A stretch of DNA of 64,000 bases. It comes from Anaeromyxobacter paludicola (GTDB lineage: Bacteria > Myxococcota > Myxococcia > Myxococcales > Anaeromyxobacteraceae). A model generated the notes under the pieces. That model saw nothing but the letters and a program-made list of their open reading frames with translations, ran no database searches and had not been told where the DNA came from. Position numbers and translations under genes: made by a program. Shown one piece after another: positions 5,009-49,073 of this stretch. The DNA lies in assembly GCF_023169965.1 (NCBI RefSeq), contig NZ_AP025592.1:186001-250000 (forward strand). The letters are read 5' to 3'. Position 1 is the first letter of the stretch. Every line of letters starts with the position of its first letter.

Positions 5009-5014
5009 CGGAAG

Positions 5015-6103: not shown

Positions 6104-6113
6104 GGATGACGCC

Positions 6114-13166: not shown

Positions 13167-13913
13167 TTGCTGCTCGCGCGCGCGATCGCCGCGTTCTTGC
13201 CCGCCGTCGCGCTGGCGGCGCCGGCCCCGGCCCCTCCGGACCTCGACGCGCTGCTCCACCACCTCGACGACCTCTACCGCTCGAGGAGCTCCATCGGGCG
13301 GATGGAGCTCTCGGTGACCGGCCCCCGCGTCCAGCGCTCGCTGCGGCTCAAGGCCTGGACCATCGGCGAGGACCGGGCCCTGGTGGTCATCGAGGCGCCG
13401 CCGCGGGAGGCCGGCACCGCCACGCTCAAGGTGGGTGAGAACCTCTGGAACTGGCTGCCGCGCATCGCCCGCACCATCCGCGTGCCCCCCTCGATGATGC
13501 TCGGGTCCTGGATGGGCACCGACTTCACCAACGACGATCTCGTGAAGGAGTCCTCGCTGCGCAAGGACTTCACCACCCGGATCGAGGCGCGCACCGCCGA
13601 CCCGCCCGGCTGGAAGCTCGTCTCCGACGTCCGCCCGGGGGTGGTCGGCCGCTGGCAGCGGATCGAGACCTTCGTCTCGGACGAGCGGCTGCCGGTGCGG
13701 GAGGTCTTCTACGACCGCAAGGGCCGGCGCGCGCGCACCCTCACCTTCGACGACGTCCGCGCGCTCGGGGGCCGGCGGCTCCCGGCGCGGCTCACCCTGC
13801 TGCCGGAGGACGACCCCGGCCGGCGCACCGAGCTGCGCTACCTGGAGCTGGAGCTCGACGTCCCGGTCGCCGCCGAGACCTTCAGCCTCTCCCGCCTGGA
13901 GCGGACCCGCTAG
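13167..13913 (+). CDS. Periplasmic LolA-like outer-membrane lipoprotein-sorting protein
   Basis: 248-aa exported protein. A short hydrophobic signal (ARAIAAFLPAVALAAPA) is followed by a beta-rich domain of the LolA-like outer-membrane lipoprotein-sorting family: RMELSVTG, GENLWNWLPRIARTIRVP, MMLGSWMGTDFTNDDLV and a C-terminal TLTFDDVR stretch. Such proteins fold as a half-barrel that carries lipids or lipoproteins across the periplasm. Start is TTG at 13167 with GGGGGAAG a few bases before; no ATG or GTG is available in frame. It is followed after 9 bases by two FtsX-type permeases and an ATPase, so it is probably their periplasmic carrier. Cargo unknown. Confidence 0.8.
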   Translation: MLLARAIAAFLPAVALAAPAPAPPDLDALLHHLDDLYRSRSSIGRMELSVTGPRVQRSLRLKAWTIGEDRALVVIEAPPREAGTATLKVGENLWNWLPRIARTIRVPPSMMLGSWMGTDFTNDDLVKESSLRKDFTTRIEARTADPPGWKLVSDVRPGVVGRWQRIETFVSDERLPVREVFYDRKGRRARTLTFDDVRALGGRRLPARLTLLPEDDPGRRTELRYLELELDVPVAAETFSLSRLERTR

Positions 13914-13922
13914 GAGCCCCTC

Positions 13923-15152: not shown

Positions 15153-15156
15153 CGGG

Positions 15157-33540: not shown

Positions 33541-33867
33541 CTTCGGCGGCCCGGGGGCGCGCTCCGGGGCGCTGGCGATGGGATGGGGGGACAGAGAGCT
33601 CTCCTGGCGTGGTCGATGGTCCGTGGCCCGCAGGCGGTGCAGCGTGCGTGCCACCCCGAAGGGCCGCCGTTCCAGGGCTTGCGCGCGCCGCGGCGGCCTT
33701 CCGGCGCGCCAACGCGTTGACGATGGCGGCCGCGCCTGCGCCAGAAGCCTGTCAATCGCAGGCCGACTGGCACGGGAAGCGGCCCGGGCCGCGCCGCGCC
33801 GGGGTGGCATGTGCGGTGCACTCTCTGAAGCGCCCGCCCGAGCGCGGGCCAGGGGAGCAGCGCCCGC
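33541..33867. other. Divergent intergenic region in the glycan locus
   Basis: About 330 bases between two divergent glycosyltransferase genes. No convincing gene is seen. It contains TTGACA on the minus strand (complement of 33750-33755) and TTGACG on the plus strand (33717-33722), neither with a good -10 at proper spacing, and an 8-base inverted repeat (33662-33669 with 33691-33698). Part may encode a longer N-terminus of the leftward gene. Confidence 0.4.
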
Positions 33868-35430: not shown

Positions 35431-36416
35431 GAGTCCAGGGAGCGAAGGTCCTCGTCACCGGGGCGGGCGGCTTCATCGGGAGCCATCTCGTCGAGCTGCT
35501 GGTGCGGCGGGGGGCGAAGGTGCGCGCGATGGTGCACTACGACGCGCGCGCCGATCAGTCGAACCTCGAGCTGGTCTCCCCAGAGGTGCGGGGGGCCTTC
35601 GAGGTGGTCTCGGGCAACGTGGAGGACCCGTACTTCGTCGCCTCGGCGGTGAAGGGGCAGGAGGCGGTGTTCCACCTGGCGGCGCTGATCGCCATCCCGT
35701 ACTCGTACCTGGCGCCGGCGAGCTTCGTGGCGACCAACGTGCAGGGCACGCTCAACGTCCTCGAGGCGTGCCGCACGCAGGGGGTGTCCCGGCTGGTGCA
35801 CACCTCCACCTCGGAGACCTACGGCACCGCGCTCTACACCCCGATCGACGAGCAGCACCCGCTGCAGGGCCAGTCGCCGTACTCGGCGAGCAAGATCGGC
35901 GCGGACAAGCTGGCGGAGAGCTACCACCTGTCCTTCGGGCTGCCGGTGGCGACCGTGCGGCCCTTCAACACCTACGGGCCGCGCCAGTCGGCGCGGGCGG
36001 TGATCCCGACCATCATCGCGCAGGCCCTGGCGTCTCCGGCGATCCGGCTCGGCTCGCTGACGCCGGTGAGGGACCTCAACTACGTGCTCGACACCGTGGC
36101 CGGCTTCGTCGCGGTGGCCGAGAGCGACGCGGCGGTGGGGCAGGTGGTGAACGTCGGGAGCGGCTCGGCGGTGACCATCGGCGAGCTGGCGGCGCTGATC
36201 CTGCGCATCATGGGGATCGAGAAGGAGATCGTGGTCGACCAGGCGCGGGTGCGCCCCGAGAAGAGCGAGGTCATGGCGCTGCTCGCCGACCGGCGCAAGG
36301 CGGAGGCGCTGACCGGCTGGACGCCACGCTACACCCTGGAACAGGGACTGCGGGAGACGGTGGAGTTCGTCCGCGCGCACCTCGATCGCTTCAAGCCCGA
36401 CGTCTACAACCGGTGA
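35427..36416 (+). CDS. NAD-dependent sugar-nucleotide epimerase/4,6-dehydratase (LegB-like)
   Basis: 329-aa extended SDR. The NAD motif is VLVTGAGGFIGSHLVELLV; the catalytic set is STSETYG and YSASKIGADKLAES (Tyr-xxx-Lys), with RPFNTYGPRQSARAVIPT typical of the LegB/GDP- or UDP-HexNAc 4,6-dehydratase branch. It would make a 4-keto-6-deoxy sugar nucleotide, the usual substrate of a DegT aminotransferase such as the one at 40.4 kb. TTG start inside a TTGA overlap with the preceding stop. Followed after 4 bases by a sugar nucleotidyltransferase. The sugar identity (UDP-GlcNAc, GDP-GlcNAc or dTDP-Glc) cannot be fixed from sequence alone. Confidence 0.85.
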   Translation: MRVQGAKVLVTGAGGFIGSHLVELLVRRGAKVRAMVHYDARADQSNLELVSPEVRGAFEVVSGNVEDPYFVASAVKGQEAVFHLAALIAIPYSYLAPASFVATNVQGTLNVLEACRTQGVSRLVHTSTSETYGTALYTPIDEQHPLQGQSPYSASKIGADKLAESYHLSFGLPVATVRPFNTYGPRQSARAVIPTIIAQALASPAIRLGSLTPVRDLNYVLDTVAGFVAVAESDAAVGQVVNVGSGSAVTIGELAALILRIMGIEKEIVVDQARVRPEKSEVMALLADRRKAEALTGWTPRYTLEQGLRETVEFVRAHLDRFKPDVYNR

Positions 36417-36420
36417 CCTC

Positions 36421-37134
36421 ATGCAGGCAGTGATCCTGGCAGGCGGCAAGGGGACGCGGCTCCGCCCCTACACCACCACCTTCCCGAAGCCGCTCATGCC
36501 GCTCGACGATCTGCCCATCGTGGAGATCGTGCTCCGGCAGCTGGCGCACCACGGCTTCACCGACGTGATCATCACCACCGGCCACCTGGCCGAGCTGATC
36601 CGGCTCTTCTGCGGGGACGGCAGCCGGTGGGGGCTGCACATCGAGTACTCGCTCGAGAACGAGCCGCTCGGGACGGCCGGGCCGCTGGCCCTGCTGGCCG
36701 ACCGGCTGGAGGATCACTTCCTGGTGATGAACGGCGACCTCCTCACCACCATGAGCTACCGGCGGGTCTACGACGCCCACGTCGCCTCCGGGGCGACCGC
36801 GTCGATCGGGGTCTACCGCCGCGAGGTGAAGATCGACTTCGGCGTGATCGAGGAGGACGAGCCGGGGCGGCTGGCCCGCTACGTCGAGAAGCCGACGTTC
36901 CACTTCGACGTGAGCATGGGCATCAACGTGCTGAGCCGGAGCGCCCTGCGCTTCGTCGAGCCGGGCAAGCGGCTCGACATGCCGGACCTCATGGCGCGGA
37001 TCGTGGCGGCCGGGGAGCGGGTGAGCTGCTACCGGGAGCCCTGCTACTGGCTCGACATCGGGCGGGTGGACGACTTCCAGGTGGCGTCGGAGGAGTTCCA
37101 GAAGCGCCGGGCCGAGTTCCTGCCTCATGCCTGA
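36421..37134 (+). CDS. Sugar-1-phosphate nucleotidyltransferase
   Basis: 237-aa NTP-transferase activating a sugar 1-phosphate to its nucleotide diphosphate. The pyrophosphorylase signature is AVILAGGKGTRLRPYT, followed by FPKPLMPLDD with the catalytic lysine, MNGDLLTT for metal binding, VEKP, MGINVLSR and WLDIGRVDDF at the end. It lacks the left-handed beta-helix of bifunctional GlmU-type enzymes. This short form is common in LPS, capsule and legionaminic/pseudaminic pathways. ATG 36421 follows the epimerase gene by 4 bases, and its end overlaps the next epimerase gene by 8 bases: one operon. Confidence 0.92.
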   Translation: MQAVILAGGKGTRLRPYTTTFPKPLMPLDDLPIVEIVLRQLAHHGFTDVIITTGHLAELIRLFCGDGSRWGLHIEYSLENEPLGTAGPLALLADRLEDHFLVMNGDLLTTMSYRRVYDAHVASGATASIGVYRREVKIDFGVIEEDEPGRLARYVEKPTFHFDVSMGINVLSRSALRFVEPGKRLDMPDLMARIVAAGERVSCYREPCYWLDIGRVDDFQVASEEFQKRRAEFLPHA

Positions 37135-38017
37135 GACCGTGCTCCTCACCGGCGCGACCGGCTACCTGGGCGCGGCCCTGCGCTCCCGGGCGGTGGTCGA
37201 AGGCGCGCGCTGCCTCGCGGTGGGGCGGCGGCCGCGGGCCGAGGAGGGGTACCGGCAGCTCGACCTGGCGGCCGGTCCCGAGGCGGTGGCGGCGCTGCTC
37301 CGCGCCGAGCGGCCGCAGGTGATCTTCCACCTCGCCGGCGGCGCGGCGGGGGATCCGTTCGCGCTCAACCTGCCGCCGCTCCGGAACCTGCTCGCGGCGC
37401 TCCGGTCCATCCCCGGCTACCTGCCGCGGCTGGTGACGGCCGGGTCCGCGGCCGAGTACGGCGACCTGGGGCCGGACCCGATCGACGAGGGGGCGCGGGA
37501 GCGGCCGGTGACCGAGTACGGGGTGGCGAAGCTGGCCCAGGCCCGGCTCGTCGCGCTGGCGCGGCGGGGCGGGTTGCCGACGGTAGTGGGGCGGGTGTTC
37601 AACGCCATCGGCCCGGGGATGCCGCCCACGCTCGCGTCGGCACGCTTCGCGCGCGAGGTGCGGGCCGCCATCGCCTCGGGCGCGCGCCACGTCACCGTGG
37701 GGGATCTCTCGACGGTGCGCGACTACCTCGACGTCGAGGACGTGGCCGCGGCGCTCTGGGCCCTCGGGCACGGGGCGCTCTCCGACCCCATCGTCAACGT
37801 CTGCTCGGGGGAGGGCGTGCGGACGGGCGAGGTGCTGGCCGAGATCCAGCGCCAGCTCGGCGTGTCGCTCGAGGTGCGGACCGATCCCGGGCTCGTCCGG
37901 GGCCCGTTCGACGTCCCGGTCAGCGTCGGCAGGAACGACCGGCTGCGCGCCGCCCTGGGCGAGGCCCCGCGGTTCTCGCTCCCACGGGCGGTGGCGCGGC
38001 TGCTGGACGGAGGCTGA
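37127..38017 (+). CDS. NAD-dependent epimerase/dehydratase (sugar nucleotide)
   Basis: 296-aa SDR-extended protein. N-terminal LLTGATGYLGAALRSRAV, FHLAGGA, the catalytic TAGSAAEYG and TEYGVAKLAQARL (Tyr-xxx-Lys), RVFNAIGPG and DYLDVEDVAAAL. It is shorter and more divergent than the LegB-like gene upstream, suggesting an epimerase or 4-ketoreductase finishing the sugar nucleotide. It closes the four-gene rightward operon and is convergent with the following glycosyltransferase; only 9 bases separate the stop codons, with no obvious hairpin. Confidence 0.87.
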   Translation: MPETVLLTGATGYLGAALRSRAVVEGARCLAVGRRPRAEEGYRQLDLAAGPEAVAALLRAERPQVIFHLAGGAAGDPFALNLPPLRNLLAALRSIPGYLPRLVTAGSAAEYGDLGPDPIDEGARERPVTEYGVAKLAQARLVALARRGGLPTVVGRVFNAIGPGMPPTLASARFAREVRAAIASGARHVTVGDLSTVRDYLDVEDVAAALWALGHGALSDPIVNVCSGEGVRTGEVLAEIQRQLGVSLEVRTDPGLVRGPFDVPVSVGRNDRLRAALGEAPRFSLPRAVARLLDGG

Positions 38018-38026
38018 CGCCCCGGC

Positions 38027-39106
38027 TCACCCGGCCGCGAGCTGCTCGCGGAAGATGGCCTCGTAGCGATCCAGCGTCAGCCGCTGGTCGAACTTGCTCT
38101 CGGCCATGGCGCGCGAGCACCGCTTGAGCTCGGCGAGCTCTCCGGGCGCGGCCGTCCAGCGGGCGAGCAGCTCCGCGAAGCGGCCGACCTCCTTGGGCGG
38201 GACGAGATAGCCGTTCCTTCCCTCCTCGATCAGCTCCGGGATCCCGCCCACCGGCGAGGCGATCACCGGGATCCCGCAGGCGTTTGCCTCCATCACGATC
38301 TGGGGGCGGCCGTCGCCGCTGGACGGGACCACCAGCACGTCGAGGCCGGCGAAGGCGTCGGCGAGCTCGGGCACGTAGCCGCGGTAGTCGATGGCCTGAC
38401 GCGCGCCGCTCCGCTCGATGGTCCGCTGGACCTCGTCCGCGAGCGGGCCGCCCCCCACCATGCGGAAGGAGACCGACGGGTGGCTCGCGTGAAGCCGCTC
38501 GGCCAGCTCGACGAAGCCGAGGGGGTTCTTCTCGCCCGACATCCGGCCGACGTAGCCGATCGTGAGTCCCGCGCCGGTCCGGGGGCGGGTGTCCACGGCG
38601 AAGGCCTCCAGGTCGATGCCGCTCTCCGCCACCTTCACGTTCGGGTCGGCCTTGGACGAGCAGCGCTCGATGTAACGGCGCATGAACTGGCTCTCGACGA
38701 TCACGCCGGTCATGCACCGCTCGTGCAGGAAGTGGTTCACCGTGTGCCCGAACTCGTTGTAGAGCACGTCGAAGATCGGCGTGCGCGGGAAGCGCTCGCG
38801 GAGGTAGGGCAGGTACGGGTAGAGGGGGATCGCGCCCACCTGCAGCACCAGGCCGACGTTCCGGTGCCGGATGGCGTGCCCGAGGTGGTCGCAGTAGTCC
38901 ACGTTCTGCACGCCGGTGAGGTCCATCAGGGCGCGCGCGGCCGCGAAGTCGTTCGCCGGCTCCGGGGTCACCCTGTAGGCCAGGGCCTGCCAGGTGTGGG
39001 CGACGATGACCTCGATGCCGCGGGCTCGCATGGCGCGGAGGACCCGGAGGATGAGGGCCTCCTTGGCGAGGTAGGGCAGCAGGGCGAGGATGGTCCGGTG
39101 CGACAT
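38027..39106 (-). CDS. Glycosyltransferase family 4 (GT-B)
   Basis: 359-aa GT-B enzyme: IGYVGRMSGEKNPLGFVELAERL, VGGGPLADEV, YRGYVPELADAFAGLDVLVVPSSGDGRPQIVMEANACGIPVIASPVGGIPELI. The catalytic-site glutamate lies in the usual position of the C-terminal domain. The N-terminal acceptor domain begins LALLPYLAKEALILRVLRAM. It presumably adds a hexose to a lipid-linked or surface glycan. Co-directional with the family 2 enzyme just upstream. ATG 39106 has a GGAG ribosome site 8 bases before it. Confidence 0.9.
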   Translation of the reverse strand: MSHRTILALLPYLAKEALILRVLRAMRARGIEVIVAHTWQALAYRVTPEPANDFAAARALMDLTGVQNVDYCDHLGHAIRHRNVGLVLQVGAIPLYPYLPYLRERFPRTPIFDVLYNEFGHTVNHFLHERCMTGVIVESQFMRRYIERCSSKADPNVKVAESGIDLEAFAVDTRPRTGAGLTIGYVGRMSGEKNPLGFVELAERLHASHPSVSFRMVGGGPLADEVQRTIERSGARQAIDYRGYVPELADAFAGLDVLVVPSSGDGRPQIVMEANACGIPVIASPVGGIPELIEEGRNGYLVPPKEVGRFAELLARWTAAPGELAELKRCSRAMAESKFDQRLTLDRYEAIFREQLAAG

Positions 39107-39131
39107 GGGGGATCTCCGGGGGAGCGTGACT

Positions 39132-40172
39132 TCAGCGCCCGAGGGCGCGCGCCCGCTGGTTGAACATCGAGAGGTCGAGCTCCAGCTCCTGCTCCGGGCT
39201 CCGGGCCTGGCGCGGCGCCGGGGCCGCGCGGAAGAGCGAGAGGAGCCGGCGGCCTGCGGTGCTGAGCAGCGGCTCGCCTTCGTCGGAGAGGACGAAGCGC
39301 TCGAAGTCGGCGTAGGAGGAGAGCGCCGGCGAGGTGAGGAACATCCCGAGCAGCCGGTAGCGCTGGATGGGGGGCATGAGCGCGAACTGGTCGTGCGTCG
39401 AGACCCAGTTGAGCATCAGCGAGAGCTGGGAGTGGAGGGCGCGGCGCTCGATGAGCGGCACCAGGTTCTTGAGCAGGAGGTAGGAGATCTCCCAGTAGGT
39501 CGCGCGCGGGTCGCCGTGGGTCGCCCCGAGCGCGTGCAGCCGGTAGAAGGTCAGGGGCTCGGGGATCATCCCGAACCGGCAGCCGCCGGCGAGCGCGCGC
39601 ACCCAGAGCTCGTAGTCCGGGGCGCGGACCATCGACTCCTCGTTGAGCCCCACCTTCTCGTGCACCGAGCGGCGCAGGATGGTCGAGGAGTGGCACAGGC
39701 TGTTGCGCACGTTCCACGTGGCGACGTGGTTGAAGTCGAGCGACTGGTTGCCGGGCTGCTCGATCTCGGCCGCCTGCGGGTGGCGCTTGCCGTCCACGTC
39801 CACGACCGAGACGTAGCTGCCGACGATGTCGAGCGACGGGTCGCGTCGGAAGGCGGCCAGCTGCTTCTCGGTCTTGCGCGGGTCGATCCAGTCGTCCGCG
39901 TCCACCAGCGACAGGTACTCGCCGCGCGCCAGCGATACGGAGCGGTTGTAGCTGGCGGTCGCGCCCAGGTTCCGGTCGTTCACGTGGACGCGGATGCGCG
40001 GATCGTCGAACGAACGGATCACGTCGAGCGAGGCGTCCTGGGAGACGTCGTCCACGACCAGGAGCTCGAAGTCCTGGAACGTCTGGCCGAGGATGCTCCG
40101 GATCGTCTGGCCGATGTACTTCTCGTAGTTGTACGAGAGCACGATGAAGGAGACGAGCGGGGCAGTGGACAC
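39132..40172 (-). CDS. Glycosyltransferase family 2
   Basis: 346-aa GT-A enzyme. VSFIVLSYNYEKYIGQTIRS, LLVVDDVSQDAS, the LVDADDWIDP metal-binding motif, and APDYELWVRAL as the catalytic acidic region. A long C-terminal helical extension follows (about residues 225-346), with no membrane helix. The start is taken as GTG 40172 because AGGAG lies 7 bases before it; the upstream in-frame ATG at 40193 has no ribosome site. With the downstream family 4 gene it forms a leftward two-gene unit facing away from the acyl cassette. Confidence 0.88.
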   Translation of the reverse strand: MSTAPLVSFIVLSYNYEKYIGQTIRSILGQTFQDFELLVVDDVSQDASLDVIRSFDDPRIRVHVNDRNLGATASYNRSVSLARGEYLSLVDADDWIDPRKTEKQLAAFRRDPSLDIVGSYVSVVDVDGKRHPQAAEIEQPGNQSLDFNHVATWNVRNSLCHSSTILRRSVHEKVGLNEESMVRAPDYELWVRALAGGCRFGMIPEPLTFYRLHALGATHGDPRATYWEISYLLLKNLVPLIERRALHSQLSLMLNWVSTHDQFALMPPIQRYRLLGMFLTSPALSSYADFERFVLSDEGEPLLSTAGRRLLSLFRAAPAPRQARSPEQELELDLSMFNQRARALGR

Positions 40173-40279
40173 GGGAGGTCTCCTGTCGTTCATGACGGCG
40201 GGACGGAATGCAACTACCCTGCCGCCGCGCCAGCGCCCGAGAACAGGCGCAAATCGCCGCCGTCCCGGGCGCCCGGACG

Positions 40280-40294
40280 CTGACGGCGCGTCAG
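40280..40294. promoter_or_regulatory. Small inverted repeat between divergent units (possible operator)
   Basis: CTGACG-GCG-CGTCAG, a perfect 6-base inverted repeat in the 263-base gap between the leftward glycosyltransferase and the aminotransferase gene. No clear promoter elements were recognised in the rest of the gap. Confidence 0.25.
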
Positions 40295-40435
40295 ATGCGT
40301 GACGTTCGCCTCCTCGGCGATCGCCAGGAAGTCGCGCCAGGGGCGGGCGCTTCGGCGAGAAGACCCGTCCGGCATCGCTCGTGCATCGCGGGTCCGTGCC
40401 GCCAAGTCACTGGCGCCGGAACGGAGAAGAGGCAC

Positions 40436-41722
40436 GTGAGCCAGACCCAGCGCCGCGCCAAGCAGGACGTCAGCGAGCTCGCGATCTTCGGAGGGAAGCC
40501 CAGCTTCGAGCGCCCCCTCCACGTCGGACAGCCGAACATCGGAGATCGGGACCGCCTGCACGGGCTCCTCGACGAGATCCTCGACCGGCGCTGGCTCACC
40601 AACCACGGGCCGCTCGTGACGGAGCTCGAGTCGAAGCTCGCCAGGCTCATGGGGGTGCGCCACTGCATCGCGGTCTGCAACGGCACGGTGGCCCTGGAGA
40701 TCGCCATCCGCGCCCTGGGCCTGAAGGGCGAGGTGATCGTTCCGAGCTTCACCTTCGCCGCGACCGCGCACGCGCTGCAGTGGCAGGAGATCACGCCCAT
40801 CTTCTGCGACGTGGATCCGAGGACGCACACGCTGGACCCGGAGCGCGTCGAGCGCATGGTGTCCTCGAGGACCACCGGGATCCTCGGCGTCCACCTCTGG
40901 GGGCGAGCCTGCGACGTGGAGGGGCTGAGCGAGGTGGCGCGTCGCCACCGGCTGGCCCTGCTGTTCGACGCGGCGCATGCCTTCGCGGTCTCCCGGCGCG
41001 GTCGGATGATCGGCAACTTCGGCGACTGCGAGGTGTTCAGCTTCCACGCGACCAAGGTGTTCAACACCTTCGAGGGCGGGGCGATCGCCACCAACGACGA
41101 TCAGCTCGCTCGCCGCTTGCGCTGGATGCAGAACTTCGGCTTCTCCGGCTACGATCAGGTCGATCACATCGGCGTCAACGGCAAGATGTCCGAGATCTCG
41201 GCGGCCATGGGGCTCGTCGGGCTCGAGTCGCTCGACGAGTTCATCGGCTGCAACCGGCGCAACCACGCGCGCTACGCCGAGCTGCTGGCCGGGATCCCGG
41301 GGCTCCAGCTGCACGGCTACGACCCGGCGGAGCGGCAGAATCACCAGTACGTCGTGGTCGAGGTGGATCAGGACGCGGCCGGGATCGGCCGCGACGCGCT
41401 GGTCGAGCTCCTCCACGCCGAGAACGTCCTCGTCCGCCGGTACTTCTACCCCGGGGTGCATCGCATGGAGCCCTACCGCTCGCTCTACCCCAACGCAGGC
41501 CTGCTCCTGCCGGTCACGGAGCGGCTCGTGACCAGGACGATGATCCTCCCCACCGGCACCGGGCTCTCGGTCGAGGACGTGGACGGCGTCTGCGACCTCA
41601 TCCGGCTGGCGGTCGGGCAGGGGGCCGAGATCCTGGCGCGGAAGGCGCGCGCGCAGGGCCCCAGGGGCACGGCGGCCGCCTCGGCCAGGCCTCCCCCCCG
41701 GCTGGCCGAGGCCGCGCGCTGA
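40436..41722 (+). CDS. DegT/DnrJ/EryC1 family PLP aminotransferase
   Basis: 428-aa PLP aminotransferase of the sugar-aminotransferase fold. Motifs: LTNHGPLVTELESKLA, GTVALEIAIRALGL, PSFTFAATAHAL, LLFDAAHAF, and FHATKVFNTFEGGA with Lys207 as the PLP lysine. These enzymes normally aminate 4-keto-6-deoxy or 3-keto sugar nucleotides from glutamate. Here the gene heads the operon with ACP, acyl ligase, LuxE and LuxC, so a non-sugar aldehyde acceptor is an alternative. GTG 40436 is preferred, with a GGAGAAGAGG purine-rich site; the frame stays open upstream without protein-like content. The C-terminal 35 residues are low-complexity. Confidence 0.9.
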   Translation: MSQTQRRAKQDVSELAIFGGKPSFERPLHVGQPNIGDRDRLHGLLDEILDRRWLTNHGPLVTELESKLARLMGVRHCIAVCNGTVALEIAIRALGLKGEVIVPSFTFAATAHALQWQEITPIFCDVDPRTHTLDPERVERMVSSRTTGILGVHLWGRACDVEGLSEVARRHRLALLFDAAHAFAVSRRGRMIGNFGDCEVFSFHATKVFNTFEGGAIATNDDQLARRLRWMQNFGFSGYDQVDHIGVNGKMSEISAAMGLVGLESLDEFIGCNRRNHARYAELLAGIPGLQLHGYDPAERQNHQYVVVEVDQDAAGIGRDALVELLHAENVLVRRYFYPGVHRMEPYRSLYPNAGLLLPVTERLVTRTMILPTGTGLSVEDVDGVCDLIRLAVGQGAEILARKARAQGPRGTAAASARPPPRLAEAAR

Positions 41723-41825
41723 TGGGTCCCCCCCCAACCCTTCGCCCGGCGGTGCCGGGCCCGACCAGCGACCTCCAGCTCCGCAACCCTCTCGCCCGCC
41801 CGATGGGCGGCTCCCAGGCGACCCC

Positions 41826-42086
41826 ATGACCCACGCATCCGCAGGCTCTCTCGAAGTCCTCCGGGCCGTCTTTCGCGAGGCCCTGATGCTGCCCCCGTCG
41901 CGGTCGGTGGACGACCTCGCCTACCGGGTGGCCGCCGAGTGGGACTCGGTGGCCCACATGCAGCTCATCAACGGAATCGAGGCGGCGTTCGACCTGATGC
42001 TCGACACCGGCGAGGTGCTCGATCTCTCGAGCTTCCAGAAGGCGAGGGACATCCTGTCGGCTCGCGGGGTGAACCTTGCGCCTTGA
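41826..42086 (+). CDS. Acyl carrier protein
   Basis: 86-aa discrete carrier protein. The phosphopantetheine site is EWDSVAHMQLINGIEAAF, with Ser41 as the attachment serine in a D-S motif. The following helix-2 acidic stretch and the FQKARDIL C-terminus fit the ACP/PCP fold. It is not the housekeeping AcpP (which has DSLD), so it is a specialised carrier. The operon also encodes its own holo-ACP synthase (47.2 kb), an acyl ligase and LuxE/LuxC-like enzymes, which makes it the likely tether for the acyl group being activated and reduced. ATG 41826; its end overlaps the SDR start. Confidence 0.88.
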   Translation: MTHASAGSLEVLRAVFREALMLPPSRSVDDLAYRVAAEWDSVAHMQLINGIEAAFDLMLDTGEVLDLSSFQKARDILSARGVNLAP

Positions 42087-42822
42087 TGGCCAGATCGCGC
42101 TGGTCACCGGCTCGACGCGAGGCATCGGCTGGGCGACGGCCCGCTCCCTGGCGCGGGCCGGCGCGACCGTCGTCCTGTCGGGCCACAGCGATCCGGCCCT
42201 GCTGGCGCGCCGGGCGGAGGAGCTCTCCGCCGAGTCCGGCCGCCCCGTCCAGGGCATCCCCTGCGACGTCTCGAGCACCGCGGCGGTGCGCGCGCTCTTC
42301 CAGGAGATCTTCCGGACGCACCGACGCCTCGACGTCCTCGTGAACAACGCGGGCGTCATGGAGGACGCCCTGCTCGGCATGATCGAGGACGCGCTCGTGG
42401 AGCGCGTGCTGGGCGTGAACGTGCGCGGCGCCATCAACGTCCTCCAGGGCGCGGCGCGGCTCATGGCGCGGACGAGGAGCGGCTGCATCGTGAACGTCAG
42501 CTCGATCGTCGGCGTGCGCGGCAACGTCGGCCAGGCCGTCTACTCCGCCTCCAAGGCCGCCATCGTGGGGCTCACGCTGTCGGCCTCGAAGGAGCTCGCG
42601 CCGCAGGGCATCCGCGTGAACGCGATCGCCCCCGGGTTCATCGACACCGACATGACCCGCGCCCTTCCGCCCGAGAAGTTCCGCGACCTCGCGGCGCGGA
42701 TCGGCATGGGTCGGGTGGGTACGCCGGAGGACGTCGCCGGCGCCGTCCTGTTCCTCTGCTCGGAGCTGGCCGCCTACGTGACCGGGCAGGTGCTGGGGGT
42801 GGACGGGGGGATGCAGGTCTAA
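42076..42822 (+). CDS. FabG-like short-chain dehydrogenase/reductase
   Basis: 248-aa classical SDR. TGSTRGIGWATA for cofactor binding with a following SGHS that suggests NADPH, NNAGVMED, catalytic Ser in NVSSIVG, Tyr and Lys in YSASKAA, and a C-terminal GQVLGVDGGMQV. The closest fit is 3-oxoacyl-ACP reductase (FabG). Next to a carrier protein it probably reduces a beta-keto acyl-ACP. The TTG at 42076 overlaps the end of the ACP gene by 11 bases, implying coupled translation. An alternative role as a keto-sugar reductase is less likely given the neighbours. Confidence 0.88.
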   Translation: MRLDGQIALVTGSTRGIGWATARSLARAGATVVLSGHSDPALLARRAEELSAESGRPVQGIPCDVSSTAAVRALFQEIFRTHRRLDVLVNNAGVMEDALLGMIEDALVERVLGVNVRGAINVLQGAARLMARTRSGCIVNVSSIVGVRGNVGQAVYSASKAAIVGLTLSASKELAPQGIRVNAIAPGFIDTDMTRALPPEKFRDLAARIGMGRVGTPEDVAGAVLFLCSELAAYVTGQVLGVDGGMQV

Positions 42823-42827
42823 CCGCC

Positions 42828-44240
42828 ATGTTCCTCGCTCCCGCCCGCCATGCCGACTCGGCCCTCGCCCTGCTGGATCCCGTCGCCCGGATCGCGCTGA
42901 CGCACGGGGAGCTCCGGGAGCGCGCGGACGAGGGGGCGAGGGCGCTCGCCCTGGTCCCGCGCGGGCTCGCCGTGCTGCTGTGCCGGAACGACGTGCCCAC
43001 CGTCGTCGCGTGGCTCGCGCTCGTGGAGGCGGGGTGGCCGGTGCTGCTCCTCGACGCCGACGCCGATCCCGCGGTGACGGCGCCGCTGCTCGCCCGGTAT
43101 GTCCCCGAGGTCGTGATCGGACCCGCCGAGAGCCTGCCGGCGGCCGCGCCCTGGCGGCGGATCGCCTTCCCGGGCGCTCCAGCGGTCCGGCGCGACGGGC
43201 CCCCGGGCCCGCCGCCGCATCCCGAGCTGACCCTGCTCCTCTCGACCTCCGGCAGCACCGGCAGCCCGAAGCTCGCGCGCCTGACCCGCGCCGCGGTGGA
43301 GGCCAACGCCCGGTCGATCACGGAGGCGCTGGGGATCGCCGACCACGAGCGCGCCGCGGGCAGCCTCCCGCTCCACTACTCGTACGGACTGTCGGTGTTG
43401 AACAGCCACCTGGTCGCCGGCGCCTGCGTGGTGCTCTCCCGCGACTCGGTGGTGACCGAGCGCTTCTGGGCGACGCTGCGCGAGGGCGAGTGCACCTCGT
43501 TCGCGGGCGTGCCGTACACCTACCAGATGCTCGACCGGCTCGCGCTCGACGCGCTCCTGCCCCGGACCCTCCTCACGATGACGCAGGCCGGCGGCAAGCT
43601 GGCCGAGCCGTTCCTGAGGCGCGCCGCCGAGCGCATGGAGGCGCGCGGCGGCCGCTTCTTCGTCATGTACGGAGCGACCGAGGCGACGGCCCGCATGGCC
43701 TGCCTCCCCGCGGAGGCGCTCTGGCGGAAGATCGGTTCCGCCGGCCGGGCCATCCCCGGGGGACGGCTGACGGTCGAGGTGGAGGACGTGCGCTCCGAGG
43801 AGGCGGACCGGACGGGCGAGGTGGTCTACGAGGGGCCGAACGTGATGATGGGCTACGCGACCACCCGCGACGACCTCTGCCGGGGCGACGAGCTGGGAGG
43901 CGTGCTGAGGACCGGGGACCTGGGCCGCCTGGACTCCGATGGGTTCCTCTGGATCGCCGGGAGGTCCAAGCGGATCGCCAAGCTGTTCGGCCTGCGCGTG
44001 AACCTCGACGAGGTGGAGAACGTGCTGCGCGGCTACGCGCCCGCGGGGGTCATCGCGGGGGAAGACCGGCTGCTCGGGTTCGTGCAGGCCGGCGAGGAGC
44101 TCGATCTCGCCGGCCTCTCCGTCGAGCTCGCGCGCAGGCTGCGCGTGTACCCGCGCGCCGTCCTGCTGCGGCGCGTCGGGGCCCTGCCGCTCCTGGCCAA
44201 CGGGAAGCTGGACTATCGCGCGCTGGAGGCGCTCCGGTGA
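42828..44240 (+). CDS. AMP-forming acyl-CoA/acyl-ACP ligase (ANL superfamily)
   Basis: 470-aa adenylating enzyme. P-loop STSGSTGSPK, Y(G)ATE motif MYGATEATARM, RTGDLGRLDSDGF with the hinge, GRSKRIAKLFGLRVNLDEVE, and the C-terminal catalytic lysine in LANGKLDY. It adenylates a carboxylic acid and passes it to CoA or a carrier phosphopantetheine. At 470 aa it is short for the family because the N-terminal region is reduced. It is followed by a LuxE-like gene through a GTGA overlap; two adenylating-type proteins in tandem are notable. The acid specificity is unknown. Confidence 0.9.
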   Translation: MFLAPARHADSALALLDPVARIALTHGELRERADEGARALALVPRGLAVLLCRNDVPTVVAWLALVEAGWPVLLLDADADPAVTAPLLARYVPEVVIGPAESLPAAAPWRRIAFPGAPAVRRDGPPGPPPHPELTLLLSTSGSTGSPKLARLTRAAVEANARSITEALGIADHERAAGSLPLHYSYGLSVLNSHLVAGACVVLSRDSVVTERFWATLREGECTSFAGVPYTYQMLDRLALDALLPRTLLTMTQAGGKLAEPFLRRAAERMEARGGRFFVMYGATEATARMACLPAEALWRKIGSAGRAIPGGRLTVEVEDVRSEEADRTGEVVYEGPNVMMGYATTRDDLCRGDELGGVLRTGDLGRLDSDGFLWIAGRSKRIAKLFGLRVNLDEVENVLRGYAPAGVIAGEDRLLGFVQAGEELDLAGLSVELARRLRVYPRAVLLRRVGALPLLANGKLDYRALEALR

Positions 44241-45316
44241 GCATCGCCGACTTCTTCGAGGTGCCGCCCTTCGGCGTGGACCCGGTCACCCGGCGGGCGC
44301 GGCTGCTCGAGGAGCTCCTGCGGCTGCAGCTGCACCACGCCGCCGGCTGCGCGCCGTACGCGCGCTTGCTGGGCGCCCTCCACCCGGGAGCGTCGCCGGC
44401 CCGACTCGAGGAGGTCCCGTGGGTGCCGGTCGGGCTCTTCAAGTCCCACCGGCTGTCGAGCGTGCCCGAGAGCGCGGTCTTCAAGGTGATGCGGTCGAGC
44501 GGCACGACGGGGCAGGCGCCGAGCCAGGTCGTCCTCGACCGCGAGACGGCCGAGCTGCAGTCGCGCGCGCTGGCGCGCATCATCGGAGCCGTCGCGGGCC
44601 AGGGGCGCCTGCCCATGCTGATCGTCGAGCGCAGGGACCTGCTCCGCCGCCCCGAGGCGGGCACCGCGCGGGGCGCGGGCGTGCTCGGCTTCATGATGGC
44701 CGGCCGAAACCACTTCTTCTGCCTGGACGAGGGGTACCGGCTGGACGTGGACGGGCTCCGGGCGTGGCTCGCGAGGCACGGCGACGCGCCCTTCCTGGTG
44801 TTCGGCTTCACGTTCCTGGTCTGGCAGCACCTCGCCGAGGAGGCGCGGGGGCTCGGGCTCGACCTCTCGCGCGGCATCCTCTTCCACGGCGGAGGCTGGA
44901 AGAAGCTGCAGGCTCGGGCGGTCGGGGCGGCCGCGTTCCGCGACCAGCTGCGCGACGCCGTGCGCCTCGAGCGCGTCCACTCGTTCTACGGGATGATCGA
45001 GCAGGTCGGGAGCGTCTTCGTCGAGGGAGGCGACGGCTGGCTCCACGTGCCGTCGTTCGCCGAGGTGATCGTCCGCGACCCGCGCACGCTGGAGGCGCTG
45101 CCGCCGGGGCAGGTGGGGGTCATCGAGGTGCTCTCGGTCCTCCCGCGGAGCTATCCGGGGCACGCCATCCTGACCGAGGACCTCGGCGTGGTCCACGCGC
45201 TGGACGCGCCCGAAGCGGGCTTCCGCGGCACCGCGTTCAGCGTGCTGGGCCGGGTCCCCCGCGCGGAGCCGCGCGGTTGCAGCGACACCCTCCAGCCCCG
45301 GACCCCGGAGGCCTGA
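44237..45316 (+). CDS. LuxE-like acyl-protein synthetase
   Basis: 359-aa member of the LuxE/PaaK-related acyl-protein synthetase family. In luminous bacteria LuxE activates a fatty acid with ATP and passes it to the LuxC reductase. Visible motifs: KVMRSSGTTGQAPS (nucleotide-binding loop), FGFTFLVWQHL, LFHGGGWKKLQ, HSFYGMIEQVGSVF and SYPGHAILTEDLG, all in family order. No luxA or luxB luciferase genes are nearby, so the aldehyde is not for light. It overlaps the ligase gene and is followed after 3 bases by the LuxC-like gene, so the two presumably form a complex. Confidence 0.9.
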   Translation: MSIADFFEVPPFGVDPVTRRARLLEELLRLQLHHAAGCAPYARLLGALHPGASPARLEEVPWVPVGLFKSHRLSSVPESAVFKVMRSSGTTGQAPSQVVLDRETAELQSRALARIIGAVAGQGRLPMLIVERRDLLRRPEAGTARGAGVLGFMMAGRNHFFCLDEGYRLDVDGLRAWLARHGDAPFLVFGFTFLVWQHLAEEARGLGLDLSRGILFHGGGWKKLQARAVGAAAFRDQLRDAVRLERVHSFYGMIEQVGSVFVEGGDGWLHVPSFAEVIVRDPRTLEALPPGQVGVIEVLSVLPRSYPGHAILTEDLGVVHALDAPEAGFRGTAFSVLGRVPRAEPRGCSDTLQPRTPEA

Positions 45317-45319
45317 GCG

Positions 45320-46588
45320 ATGATCGAGGTCGTCATCCCCGCGCTGGGCGCGAGACCCGCGGACGCCTTCGCCCGCAGCCTGGGCGGCGCGCGGTCGCTG
45401 GCCCCCTTCGATCCGCGCGCGATCGAGTTCGTCGCCGCCCTCTCGGCCGAGCTCTTCCGCGATCCGGCCTGTCGCGCCCACCCCGCCATCCAGGCGCTGG
45501 CCTTCGGTACGCGGCGCGCCGCCGTCACGCGGCTCGCGGCGGCCGTCGCGGCGACCCGGCAGCCCGACATCGTGCGGGTGCCGGTCGGCGTCGTGTTCCA
45601 CGTCCCGCCCGCCAACGTGGACACCCTCTTCATCTACTCCTGGCTCTTCGCCTTCCTGGCCGGCAACCGGAGCGTGGTGCGGCTGCCCTCGCGCACCTCG
45701 CCGGTGCTCGAGGCCGTGCTGGCCGCCTTCGAGCGCGTCCGCGCCGCGTGGCCCGATCCCGAGGTCGCGGAAGCCTCGTGCTTCGTGCGCTACGGGCACG
45801 AGGAGGCGATCACGGCGGCCCTCACCCGAGCCTGCGACCTGCGGGTGATCTGGGGCGGCGACGCGACCATCGAGACCCTGCGACGGATCCCGGCACCGCC
45901 GGCGGGCCGGGACCTCTGCTTCCCCGATCGCTGGTCGCTCGCGGCCCTGCGCGCCGAGGCGGTGGCCGAGCTGCCGGAGCGGGCGCTCGAGGAGCTCGCC
46001 GCCCGGCTGTACGCCGACACCTACTGGTTCGGGCAGCAGGCGTGCTCCTCGCCGCGGCTCCTGGCGTGGGTCGGCGGGGCCGACGCGGCGCAGCGGGCCC
46101 AGCGCCGGCTGGTCGCGGCGCTCGCCGGGGAGCTCGAGCGCCGTGGCGAGGAGGTCGATCCTTCGACCGCGCTCGGCCGCGAGACGCTCGTCAACCGGCT
46201 CGCGGCGGACGGTCTCGTCGAGAGCAGGCTGCGGGCTGGCGCGGCGCTCTGGATCGTCGCGCTGGCGCCGGCGACGGGCGACGCGCCCGGAGACCCGCCG
46301 CTGCTCGTCAGGGAGCACACCGGCGGCGGGCTCTTCCTGTCCCTTCGGATCGACCGGCTGGCGCAGCTCGCTGCCCGCCTCGGCCGCCGCGACCAGACGC
46401 TGGCTCACTTCGGCTTCGAGGCCGAGGAGCTGGGGGAGCTCGTCCGGATCCTGAACGGGCGCGCGCTCGACCGGGTGGTCCCGATCGGCGAGGCGCTCCT
46501 GTTCGACCGCATCTGGGACGGCGTGGACCTGATCGAGGAGATGACCCGGCGCGTGCATCTCGTCACCACCCCAAGGCAGCTGCGCTGA
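45320..46588 (+). CDS. LuxC-like acyl-CoA/acyl-ACP reductase (fatty aldehyde forming)
   Basis: 422-aa LuxC-family reductase that takes an activated acyl group on an active-site cysteine and reduces it with NADPH to the aldehyde. The catalytic region is FGQQACSSPRLL with Cys242 as the nucleophile. The aldehyde-dehydrogenase-like cofactor domain shows VGVVFHVPPANVDT, FLAGNRSVVRLPS and VIWGGDATIETLRRIP. Length is slightly below the luminous enzymes (about 475 aa). ATG 45320 follows GGAGG by 9 bases. Its position after LuxE and near an ACP and a DegT aminotransferase suggests the aldehyde is an intermediate, not an end product. Confidence 0.9.
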   Translation: MIEVVIPALGARPADAFARSLGGARSLAPFDPRAIEFVAALSAELFRDPACRAHPAIQALAFGTRRAAVTRLAAAVAATRQPDIVRVPVGVVFHVPPANVDTLFIYSWLFAFLAGNRSVVRLPSRTSPVLEAVLAAFERVRAAWPDPEVAEASCFVRYGHEEAITAALTRACDLRVIWGGDATIETLRRIPAPPAGRDLCFPDRWSLAALRAEAVAELPERALEELAARLYADTYWFGQQACSSPRLLAWVGGADAAQRAQRRLVAALAGELERRGEEVDPSTALGRETLVNRLAADGLVESRLRAGAALWIVALAPATGDAPGDPPLLVREHTGGGLFLSLRIDRLAQLAARLGRRDQTLAHFGFEAEELGELVRILNGRALDRVVPIGEALLFDRIWDGVDLIEEMTRRVHLVTTPRQLR

Positions 46589-46597
46589 GGAGCCACC

Positions 46598-47242
46598 ATG
46601 GCGTCCACCTACATCCTCGGAGGAGGCGGCCTCGGGCGCGAGGCGCGCCTGTACCTGGACGACGCCCGGCTCGCGGGCGCGGACCTGCCGGGCTTCGGCG
46701 GCTTCCTCGAGGACTACGGCCCGAACGACGGCCGTCCGCCGGTGGCCGCGGGAGCGCGCCTCCTGGAGCGGATCCGCCCCGAGCCAGGCGATCGGTTCCT
46801 CGTTGCGGTGGGCGATCCCCTCCTACGAGCCCGGCTCGCGGCGCGGCTGAAGGCGCTCGAGCTCGCCGTCGCGACGCTGATCCACCCGAGGGCCTGGGTC
46901 GCCCCGGACGCCCTCCTGGGCGAAGGCTGCCTGGTCGCGCCCTTCGCCTTCGTGGGGCCCGGCGCGAGGCTCGGCGATCACGTGGCGCTCAACACGCACG
47001 CCTCGGTCGGGCACGACGGCTCGGTGGGCGACCACACGGTGCTGTCGCCCTATGCCGTGCTGAACGGTAACGCCGCGGTGGGCGATTCGAGCTTCCTCGG
47101 CACGGGCGCGGCGGTGGTGCCCCACCGGAGGGTAGGCCGGCGCGCCCAGGTGGCCGCGGGCGCCGTCGTCACGCGAGACGTGCCCGACTTCGCCCTGGCG
47201 AGCGGGAACCCTGCCGTGGCGCGGGTGCTGTATGCGCCGTGA
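46598..47242 (+). CDS. NeuD/PglD-like sugar acyltransferase (left-handed beta-helix)
   Basis: 214-aa acyltransferase with an N-terminal Rossmann-like domain (STYILGGGGLGREARLY) and hexapeptide repeats (LIHPRAWVAPDALLGEGCLVAPFA onward), with the catalytic histidine in NTHASVGHDGSVGDH. NeuD/PglD proteins acetylate amino sugars such as UDP-4-amino sugars or sialic-acid precursors using acetyl-CoA. In this operon the acyl donor could instead be an acyl-ACP. ATG 46598 follows GGAG by 6 bases; the end overlaps the following gene by 11 bases. Together with the DegT aminotransferase this is the usual pair for making an N-acylated amino sugar. Confidence 0.9.
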   Translation: MASTYILGGGGLGREARLYLDDARLAGADLPGFGGFLEDYGPNDGRPPVAAGARLLERIRPEPGDRFLVAVGDPLLRARLAARLKALELAVATLIHPRAWVAPDALLGEGCLVAPFAFVGPGARLGDHVALNTHASVGHDGSVGDHTVLSPYAVLNGNAAVGDSSFLGTGAAVVPHRRVGRRAQVAAGAVVTRDVPDFALASGNPAVARVLYAP

Positions 47243-47639
47243 GGCTGCCGCGCCGCCGGTCTCGATCGGGGTGGACGTCGAGGAGATCGCCCGGTTCCGC
47301 GCGCTCCTGCCGAAGCTGGCCGGCTCCCAGCGCCGGCTCTTCCACCCGGAGGAGCACGCGTACTGTCGGTCGCAGCCCGATCCGGCCGTTCACTACGCGG
47401 GCCGCTGGTGCGCGAAGGAGGCCGTGGTGAAGGCGCTCTCGGCGTGGCGCCTGCTCGTGCCCCGGCAGGTCTGCATCCTGCGGTCGAGCGACGGCCGCCC
47501 CCGCGTGCGGATCGACGCGGAGGGGGGGGCGGAGGCCGCTCGGCGCCTCGACGTGAGCATCAGCCACACCGCCTCGGTGGCGGTGGCGGTCGCCGCCGCT
47601 GCTCCGGCTCGATCGAGGCGGCGCGGAAAGCTGGCCTGA
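47232..47639 (+). CDS. Holo-ACP synthase (AcpS-type phosphopantetheinyl transferase)
   Basis: 135-aa AcpS-family protein: SIGVDVEEIARF near the N-terminus (metal-binding Asp/Glu), RLFHPEEHAYC, GRWCAKEAVVKAL with the conserved Glu-Lys region, and VSISHTASVAVAV at the end. It transfers 4'-phosphopantetheine from CoA to a serine of a carrier protein. Its place at the end of the acyl operon suggests it activates the specialised carrier at 41.8 kb rather than, or besides, the housekeeping ACP. The last 15 residues are basic and poorly conserved. ATG 47232 overlaps the acyltransferase gene. Confidence 0.85.
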   Translation: MRREAAAPPVSIGVDVEEIARFRALLPKLAGSQRRLFHPEEHAYCRSQPDPAVHYAGRWCAKEAVVKALSAWRLLVPRQVCILRSSDGRPRVRIDAEGGAEAARRLDVSISHTASVAVAVAAAAPARSRRRGKLA

Positions 47640-47676
47640 CGCCCGCTCGCTCCCTGCATCGCCGGGCTGCGGTACG

Positions 47677-47706
47677 TTGGAGGGGGACCCCCCTCCACGC
47701 TATACT
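47677..47706 (+). promoter_or_regulatory. Promoter of the dicluster protein gene, with palindromic spacer
   Basis: TTGGAG (47677-47682), 18 bases, TATACT (47701-47706), then the GTG start after 6 bases: a leaderless arrangement. The spacer contains most of a perfect 9-base inverted repeat with a 2-base centre (47678-47697), which could be an operator or a terminator of the preceding operon. Confidence 0.5.
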
Positions 47707-47712
47707 GCCCCC

Positions 47713-48162
47713 GTGCCCTCCCGCCTCTCCTCCCTCGCCTACCTCGCCTGGCGCGCGGTCGGCGTCCAGCCGGTCAAGAAGCTCGCGCAGGAGGGGAGCC
47801 CCGCCGAGCGGTTCGAGAAGAACTACGCGGCGGAGGGGCTCGTGCCCACCACCGAGGAGGACCGGGCGGTGGCCGAGGCGGCGAGCGCCTGCGTCGCCTG
47901 CGGCGTGTGCGAGGCCCGCTGCGAGCTCATGGCGGCCACGCCCCACGTCCGGGCCCTCGGGCTCCACACGGCGTTCCGGCTCTACTCCAAGAGCACGACC
48001 GAGCTGCCCTGGGCCCGCGAGGCGCTGCAGGCCTGCGCGCGCTGCGACGGCTGCGACTCGGCCTGCCCGACCGGCGTGCCCATCCAGCGGGTCATCCGCC
48101 AGCTCCTCGAGCGGCTCGAGCGGCTCCCGAAGCGCGGCGGCGGGCCCGCCGGCGCGCCGTGA
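47713..48162 (+). CDS. Small [4Fe-4S] dicluster protein (HdrC-like)
   Basis: 149-aa protein with two ferredoxin-type cluster motifs, CVACGVCEARC (about residue 60) and CARCDGCDSACPTGVP (about residue 120), separated by a region resembling the HdrC/GlpC/fumarate-reductase Fe-S class (ALGLHTAFRLYSK). It presumably passes electrons between a cytoplasmic donor and a membrane or quinone partner. The GTG at 47713 is chosen because a TATACT -10 ends 6 bases before it; an in-frame start at 47677 would lie inside the promoter. It overlaps the following kinase gene (GTGA). No obvious redox partner gene is adjacent. Confidence 0.75.
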   Translation: MPSRLSSLAYLAWRAVGVQPVKKLAQEGSPAERFEKNYAAEGLVPTTEEDRAVAEAASACVACGVCEARCELMAATPHVRALGLHTAFRLYSKSTTELPWAREALQACARCDGCDSACPTGVPIQRVIRQLLERLERLPKRGGGPAGAP

Positions 48163-49073
48163 AGCCGTACCTCATCGTCAACCCCGCGAGCGCCGGCGGC
48201 AGGACCGGCCGCCACTTCGATCGCATCGCGCGCGCCGTCCGGCGCGAGCTCGGGGACTTCGAGTGCGCCTTCACCAAGGCGCGCGGCGACGGCCGGAACC
48301 TGGCCGTGGAGGCGGTCCGGGCCGGGGGCGAGCTCGTGGTCGCGGTCGGCGGCGACGGCACCGCGAGCGAGGTCATCGACGGGCTCCTCGCGGGCGACGG
48401 TCCGGCCACCTTCGGCTACATCCCGCGCGGCACGGGCGGCGATCTCCGCCGGACCCTCGGCTGGCCGGACGATCCGGCGGGGGCGGCGCGGGTCATCGCG
48501 GCCGGCCGGAGCCGCGTCTGCGACCTGGGCCTGGTCGAGCTGACCCGCCCCGATGGCAGCCTGGAGCGGCGCCACTTCGCCAACGTCGCCGGGTTCGGGA
48601 TCTCCGGCCGGGTGGTCGCCCGGATGGAGCGGCGCTCCGGGCTCCTGCCCGGCCGGCTCGCGTTCATGCTGGCGAGCGCCCGGGCGCTCGCCGGATGGCA
48701 GGATCAGCCGGTCCGGTGGCGCGCCGACGGCGGCCCCTGGCGGGAGGACCGCGTCACCGCGCTCTCCATCTGCAACGGGCGCTACTTCGGGGGCGGGATG
48801 ATGGTCGCGCCCGAGGCGCGCATGGACGACGGCCTCTTCGACGTGACGGTCTGGAAGGGGCTCGGGCTCGGCGACTTCGCGCTCAAGAAGTCGATGCTCT
48901 ACGACGGCACGCACGTGCGGCTCCCGAACACCACCCGCCTGCGGGCGCGCTCCGTCGAGGCGGAGCCGCTTGAGGGGGCCGAGGTGCTGCTCGACGTGGA
49001 CGGCGAGCAGCCGGGCCGGCTCCCCGCCCGGTTCACGATCCTGCCCGGGGCCCTGCGCATCTGCGCGGGTTGA
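48159..49073 (+). CDS. Diacylglycerol kinase family lipid kinase (YegS/DagK-like)
   Basis: 304-aa DAGK-catalytic-domain protein. The ATP site has VNPASAGGRTG, VAVGGDGTASEVIDGLL (GGDGT motif) and YIPRGTGGDLRRTLGW, where the usual asparagine of the GTxNDFA motif is replaced by Gly-Gly-Asp. The C-terminal beta domain contains GRYFGGGMMVAPEARMDDGLFDV, typical of the family. It phosphorylates a lipid such as diacylglycerol or a related alcohol at the inner membrane. GTG 48159 overlaps the dicluster stop, implying one operon with an unexpected Fe-S partner. Confidence 0.87.
   Translation: MKPYLIVNPASAGGRTGRHFDRIARAVRRELGDFECAFTKARGDGRNLAVEAVRAGGELVVAVGGDGTASEVIDGLLAGDGPATFGYIPRGTGGDLRRTLGWPDDPAGAARVIAAGRSRVCDLGLVELTRPDGSLERRHFANVAGFGISGRVVARMERRSGLLPGRLAFMLASARALAGWQDQPVRWRADGGPWREDRVTALSICNGRYFGGGMMVAPEARMDDGLFDVTVWKGLGLGDFALKKSMLYDGTHVRLPNTTRLRARSVEAEPLEGAEVLLDVDGEQPGRLPARFTILPGALRICAG

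Follow-up and report, generated by a model that had tools for sequence, protein, structure and literature searches.

The closest described relatives of the gene cassette reported here come from glycosylation loci. Its five-gene core, which encodes an acyl carrier protein (ACP), a short-chain dehydrogenase/reductase (SDR), an adenosine monophosphate (AMP)-forming ligase, and LuxE- and LuxC-like proteins, has been published in the same order in Aeromonas flagellin glycosylation islands (PMC7874193). The sets found in Aeromonas group II, the Enterobacteriaceae (PMC4875605), and Dickeya zeae (PMC7575072) have been read as fatty-acid or liposugar genes. In Vibrio cholerae, RfbL activates 2,4-dihydroxybutanoate and loads it onto coenzyme A or the carrier RfbK (PMC12208996); in V. 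cholerae O1, the acid comes from a tetronate pathway and ends on the amines of perosamine (PMC3441752). In Pseudomonas syringae, vioA, vioB, vioR, and acp, together with a ketoacyl synthase, give deoxythymidine diphosphate (dTDP)-N-(3-hydroxybutyryl)viosamine, a result tested by mass spectrometry of mutants (PMC3927599). Here we describe an eight-gene cassette at positions 40436–47639 of a 64,000-nucleotide stretch of Anaeromyxobacter paludicola DNA (contig NZ_AP025592.1, positions 186,001 to 250,000; hereafter the window). These genes are likely to make a nucleotide-linked amino sugar that carries a short hydroxyacyl amide and is used in a surface glycan.

Gene content of the cassette

The first-pass annotation of the window had described eight co-directional, mostly coupled genes at this position. 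All eight open reading frames are present on the + strand with the boundaries it gave, closely packed and with intact catalytic residues. Three pairs overlap (SDR and ACP by 11 base pairs [bp], LuxE and ligase by 4 bp, AcpS and the NeuD-type transferase by 11 bp), and the remaining gaps are 3–103 bp. The eight proteins were scanned with Pfam and NCBIfam profiles, and all except the ACP passed the Pfam cut-offs. Residue conservation was counted over those rows that have a letter at the position concerned in alignments of related-locus proteins.

The first gene (40436–41722) encodes a 428-amino-acid aminotransferase of the DegT/DnrJ/EryC1/StrS family (PF01041, 353 bits), hereafter DegT, which is DesI/VioA-like and has its pyridoxal phosphate lysine, K207, in the motif SFHATK. 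The second (41826–42086) encodes a dedicated ACP of 86 amino acids with a phosphopantetheine site at Ser41. Because its match to the Pfam PP-binding profile (PF00550) is slightly under the cut-off (19.0 bits versus 20.8), this call rests on the conserved Trp-Asp-Ser41 motif (W39-D40-S41), whose serine, already named in the first-pass annotation, is kept in 87/87 rows. The FabG/VioR-like SDR (42076–42822; PF13561 [adh_short_C2], 230 bits) retains Tyr156 in 81/81 rows, and its Lys160 is at least 95% conserved. It is followed by an AMP-forming acid ligase (42828–44240; PF00501 [AMP-binding], 129 bits).

The LuxE-like acyl-adenylating synthetase (44237–45316; PF04443, 142 bits) has a C-terminal acyl-transfer cysteine, Cys348, that is kept in 90/90 rows. 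The LuxC-like thioester reductase (45320–46588; PF05893, 75 bits) has the catalytic Cys242 that had been assigned to it earlier, kept in 88/88 rows. LuxE aligns with the LuxE chain of 7xc6 (a solved LuxC-LuxE complex), including the C-terminal GC motif with Cys348, and Cys242 aligns with the AC motif of LuxC in the same structure. Because both cysteines are invariant and match these motifs, a lux-type acyl relay from LuxE Cys348 to LuxC Cys242 is likely intact.

The last two genes encode a left-handed beta-helix N-acyltransferase of the NeuD/PglB/VioB family (46598–47242; 59 bits to a hexapeptide transferase Pfam profile) and an AcpS-type phosphopantetheinyl transferase (47232–47639; PF01648, 64 bits). 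The former belongs to the VioB/NeuD family as delimited by TIGR03570 (164.5 bits, over the cut-off of 160.8); its nearest solved structures are a pilin glycosylation protein (4m98) and perosamine N-acetyltransferase (4ea7). A housekeeping role for the cassette AcpS was tentatively set aside, since the genome has a second AcpS copy elsewhere (G000:C1:1050294-1050581) that may serve the main ACP of the cell.

Predicted pathway

In the pathway that we propose, DegT would aminate a nucleotide-4-keto-6-deoxy-hexose, most likely dTDP-linked, to give a viosamine-type sugar. LuxE would adenylate a small carboxylic acid, probably dicarboxylic (malate is the leading guess), and the acyl group would pass from Cys348 to Cys242 of LuxC, to be reduced to an aldehyde that the SDR would take to an alcohol. 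The ligase would then attach the hydroxy acid so formed to the ACP, activated by AcpS, and the NeuD/VioB-type enzyme would transfer the acyl group from the ACP to the sugar amine, forming the amide. Protein families, catalytic residues, gene order, the class of DegT, and an exchange of the SDR for an iron alcohol dehydrogenase (see below) can be read from the sequences; we infer the order of the steps, the substrate acid, and the product.

The best NCBIfam match of DegT is DesI (535 bits; cut-off 650). Its closest solved structure is 2po3 (422 bits), which is annotated as '4-dehydrase' and which we take to be DesI; the next is a perosamine synthetase (206 bits). By these matches DegT is probably a DesI/VioA-like nucleotide-sugar 4-aminotransferase. 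Its substrate is probably dTDP-4-keto-6-deoxyglucose, since the genome contains an rmlB orthologue and an rmlA-like gene. The first-pass annotation had left two fates for the cassette product, amination of the aldehyde by DegT or decoration of an amino sugar. The second is favoured by the DesI-like DegT, which at the family level matches a nucleotide-sugar enzyme, and by the NeuD/VioB-type transferase.

The role of the SDR is suggested by two gammaproteobacterial loci (L148 and L149) in which the ligase, an iron alcohol dehydrogenase in the place of the SDR, and an 825-amino-acid LuxE-LuxC fusion stand in nonulosonate-type gene sets, with an ACP called in L149. Compared by architecture, this layout matches V. 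cholerae RfbK-L-M-N, where we take RfbM to be an iron alcohol dehydrogenase and RfbN a LuxE-LuxC fusion. This exchange of non-homologous enzymes beside the LuxE-LuxC fusion suggests that the SDR turns the aldehyde made by LuxC into an alcohol. It had earlier been supposed that the chain is loaded on the ACP, its beta-keto group reduced, and the thioester then reduced to an aldehyde; the exchange instead favours passage from acid to aldehyde to alcohol, followed by loading on the ACP.

Distribution of the five-gene core

An alignment of LuxE was used as the survey bait, and 80 named loci were retrieved; the collection contains at least 580 candidates. The survey set of 91 loci comprises the LuxE-retrieved loci plus plasmid and whole-genome loci; genes in related loci were predicted with a composition-based gene caller. 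Far from occurring only in unrelated combinations, the genes recur as ACP-SDR-ligase-LuxE-LuxC in exactly this order in 75/91 loci, which is the order of the window and of the published Aeromonas core (PMC7874193). The other loci mostly have one gene absent or moved. Core-bearing groups are the Actinomycetota (59/91 loci), Acidobacteriota, Bacteroidota, Ignavibacteriota, Bacillota, Pseudomonadota, and Myxococcota, along with a Deinococcus plasmid (at least seven phyla). The seven-gene run of the window, ACP-SDR-ligase-LuxE-LuxC-NeuD-AcpS, recurs in the Deinococcus locus (L010), where glycosyltransferases and a sugar transferase precede it. Within one order of Gammaproteobacteria, 51/395 genomes have a LuxE match, mostly a strong one.

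A ligase homologue is present in 90/94 scanned sequences and a DegT gene in 66/94. For DegT, counts over 16 whole host genomes (175 matches in 109.8 megabases [Mb]) lead one to expect about 0.03 per 21 kilobases (kb). The gene adjoining the ACP often encodes a hexapeptide acyltransferase (LpxA/NeuD type) or a GNAT (PseH type), and further neighbours include 4,6-dehydratases, NeuB, cytidylyltransferases, glycosyltransferases, and, once, the flagellin glycosyltransferase Maf. Flagellin/Maf/pse surroundings are met in L114 and L159-type loci.

Several variants were observed. Paired transketolase halves lie beside LuxE/LuxC/ACP in L153 (11370–13153, called by position and the Dickeya precedent) and by the cassette in L012 (3314–5138, annotated as such); transketolase halves also adjoin the cassette in L113 (18458–19500, called from the sequence start), hinting that this variant builds a longer polyhydroxy acyl chain. 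L154 has a separate LuxE/LuxC pair (4524–5603 and 5560–6825) and, at a distance of about 7 kb, an independent 773-amino-acid LuxE-LuxC fusion (13598–15916) that is nearer to the window family than the 825-amino-acid fusions are. In two gammaproteobacterial loci (L161:6970-9774 and L162:8341-10971), the ligase and LuxE are apparently joined in one long reading frame, possibly by read-through or a gene-calling artefact; if real, this joining would support a joint role.

Mass of the proposed acyl group

The flagellin of the cassette-bearing A. piscicola AH-3 carries a pseudaminic acid derivative of 376.14 daltons (Da) and an unknown of 102 Da (PMC7874193); for A. caviae Sch3N, plain Pse5Ac7Ac is listed (PMC3958885). 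The calculated mass of C4H6O3 is 102.032 Da, that of Pse5Ac7Ac with one acetyl exchanged for C4H6O3 is 376.148 Da, and the glycan sum calculated in this way is 1491.49, compared with the reported 1491.5 Da (PMC7874193). Of the acyl groups compared, dihydroxybutyryl fits these masses, and hydroxybutyryl, glyceryl, malyl, and succinyl do not. The cassette may account for this unit of the Aeromonas flagellum. If we guess that the acyl group in A. paludicola is also C4H6O3 (dihydroxybutyryl), the glycan residue here would be 247.106 Da.

A broader proposal is offered more tentatively: that ACP-SDR-ligase-LuxE-LuxC could be a widespread, mobile carboxylic-acid-reductase-plus-carrier module making dihydroxybutyryl or similar omega-hydroxyacyl groups on amino sugars in many phyla and glycans, which would explain the 102 and 376 Da masses of Aeromonas and replace the liposugar reading. 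We regard this generalization as possible rather than probable.

Alternative explanations

If DegT aminated the LuxE/LuxC aldehyde, the product would be a fatty amine or an amino-alkyl unit. In the window, DegT indeed belongs to the gene run of the cassette, and in L017 and L016 it shares the strand, but many actinobacterial loci have it on the other strand, and its closest relatives are DesI and perosamine synthase. Its partners in other loci also belong to different sugar aminotransferase classes: among 37 partner-locus DegT proteins tested, 13 are PseC-like and one is WecE-like. Identity between the DegT partners of other loci and the window DegT is about 24–38%. By these comparisons the amino sugar varies between loci around an unchanging core, which argues that DegT makes the sugar and does not use the cassette aldehyde. 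Action of DegT on that aldehyde is therefore unlikely on its class and pairing, and the fatty-amine product, one branch of the first-pass annotation, was rejected on both counts; we consider this explanation highly improbable.

Other explanations retain the sugar but change the acyl chemistry. That the sugar carries a long-chain fatty acyl group or a fatty aldehyde, the 'liposugar' of the flagellin-island papers, has been suggested three times (PMC4875605, PMC7874193, PMC7575072), and light-organ LuxE and LuxC do use long-chain acids. It is nevertheless quite unlikely here: on the long-chain equivalog models LuxE scores 66 bits (cut-off 550) and LuxC 21.5 bits (cut-off 750), the partner acyltransferases are of NeuD/VioB or GNAT type, and cassette-bearing Aeromonas flagellin has no lipid-sized mass, only the 102 Da unit and the 376 Da sugar (PMC7874193). 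The SDR might alternatively be a true 3-oxoacyl-ACP reductase, with a 3-hydroxyacyl product such as 3-hydroxybutyryl and with the LuxE/LuxC aldehyde used in carbon-chain building. The SDR is FabG-like, VioR acts in this way in P. syringae (PMC3927599), and some cassettes have the paired transketolase halves (L153, L012, and Dickeya [PMC7575072]); however, neither a ketoacyl synthase nor a transketolase is among the eight genes, and an iron alcohol dehydrogenase replaces the SDR in the RfbK-L-M-N layout, so we hold this to be unlikely as well. Bioluminescence was rejected since the luciferase family PF00296 has no match in the entire 4.59 Mb genome, and so none just outside the window, a possibility raised in the first-pass annotation. 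Its description of an acyl activation-carrier-reduction cassette lacking a luciferase agrees with this result and with the family assignments. A luciferase-like PF00296 monooxygenase is found near the cassette in a Kibdelosporangium locus (L024:13211-14077), with its neighbour cluster in about 16 loci; it is probably a flavin or F420 enzyme and not a light gene.

Several points weigh against the short hydroxyacyl sugar that we prefer. The DesI score of DegT is under the equivalog cut-off (535 versus 650 bits). The SDR has its best matches among 3-oxoacyl-ACP reductases, and a keto-acyl substrate is possible. The rmlA and rmlB genes are about 100 kb from the cassette and a LegB-like dehydratase (35427–36416) is nearer as an alternative supplier, which makes the nucleotide sugar uncertain. 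The surveyed loci are not independent, as 59/91 are from Actinomycetota and all were gathered with LuxE. O-methylglyceryl has the same formula as dihydroxybutyryl and is hence isobaric with it, and the 102/376 Da assignment, being our own arithmetic on published masses, is a lead and not proof.

Genomic surroundings

The genome consists of one contig. Upstream of the cassette are the LegB-like NAD-dependent 4,6-dehydratase (+ strand; TIGR04180, 440 bits versus a cut-off of 475), a sugar-1-phosphate nucleotidyltransferase (36421–37134, + strand; PF00483, 148 bits), an NAD-dependent epimerase/reductase (37127–38017, + strand; PF01370, 115 bits), and two glycosyltransferases, one GT4-type (38027–39106, - strand; PF13692, 102 bits) and one GT2-type (39132–40193, - strand; PF00535, 106 bits). 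Downstream are a ferredoxin-like gene and a YegS-type lipid kinase. The cassette had been placed inside a glycan locus, which holds for the upstream side and not for the downstream side; with sugar genes on one side alone, it is at the edge of that locus. No flagellin, Maf, or pse families were found among the neighbouring proteins scanned (31384–49070). Farther upstream, the window contains a single 1334-amino-acid minus-strand gene with three GT2 domains (31381–35385) and a glycosyltransferase block (22577–27602) of three consecutive genes with alike starts, the first of which encodes a GT2 with TPR repeats.

Only this genome, among 24 searched in the family, has a close LuxE relative, which suggests that the cassette was gained laterally. 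Elsewhere the same genome has another, distant member of the LuxE family (51 bits; G000:C1:2172921-2173874; L002).

Comparison with known systems

If the proposed pathway is correct, a conserved cassette whose genes in flagellin islands are at present taken for fatty-acid or light-related ones gains a testable short-acyl function in at least seven phyla, with 247.106 Da as the exact residue mass to seek here. It would also suggest what an as yet unassigned unit of a bacterial flagellin glycan may be, and would caution against annotating LuxE/LuxC homologues that adjoin glycosyltransferases as bioluminescence or lipid genes.

The first-pass annotation knew of no characterised pathway that combines exactly these genes; this was not supported, given the Aeromonas core and the similar vioA set of D. 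zeae, both published with no function assigned, and the RfbK-L-M-N parallel. The Aeromonas group II flagellin island (orf1-orf3-luxE-luxC; PMC7874193) has the five families in the same order as the window, with the core directly downstream of its N-acyltransferase gene, pseH. One surveyed locus (L159), likened to this island by architecture alone, has the pseH-type layout and carries homologues of the window cassette. The window differs in its NeuD-type transferase, its own AcpS, and its DesI-like DegT, and has no flagellar gene among the neighbours scanned. The D. zeae locus (PMC7575072) resembles the window in combining LuxC, LuxE, ligase, FabG, ACP, a hexapeptide-type transferase, and VioA in one glycosylation locus, but has two additional transketolase halves, a second FabG, and a rearranged order. 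With the lux operon, luxCDABE, the window shares the LuxE-to-LuxC relay through conserved cysteines; the ACP, ligase, SDR, and transferase are additional.

The P. syringae viosamine island (vioA-vioS-vioB-vioR-acp) shares a VioB-type acyltransferase, a FabG-like reductase, and a dedicated ACP with the window, and probably also a DesI/VioA-type aminotransferase. Its acyl group is built by the ketoacyl synthase VioS, whereas the window has the ligase and LuxE/LuxC, and the ketoacyl synthase III family to which VioS belongs was not detected among the eight genes with Pfam. V. cholerae O1 rfbK-L-M-N-O shares the ACP, AMP ligase, LuxE/LuxC activities, alcohol-forming reductase, and amino-sugar acceptor; there LuxE and LuxC form a fusion and an iron alcohol dehydrogenase serves as the reductase, whereas the window has separate LuxE and LuxC and an SDR. 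By analogy, RfbK-L-M-N, with 2,4-dihydroxybutyryl-perosamine as its product, would be a close functional parallel of the window cassette. Decorating amino sugars from an ACP is an ordinary kind of function; it is the specific short-acyl prediction that is useful.

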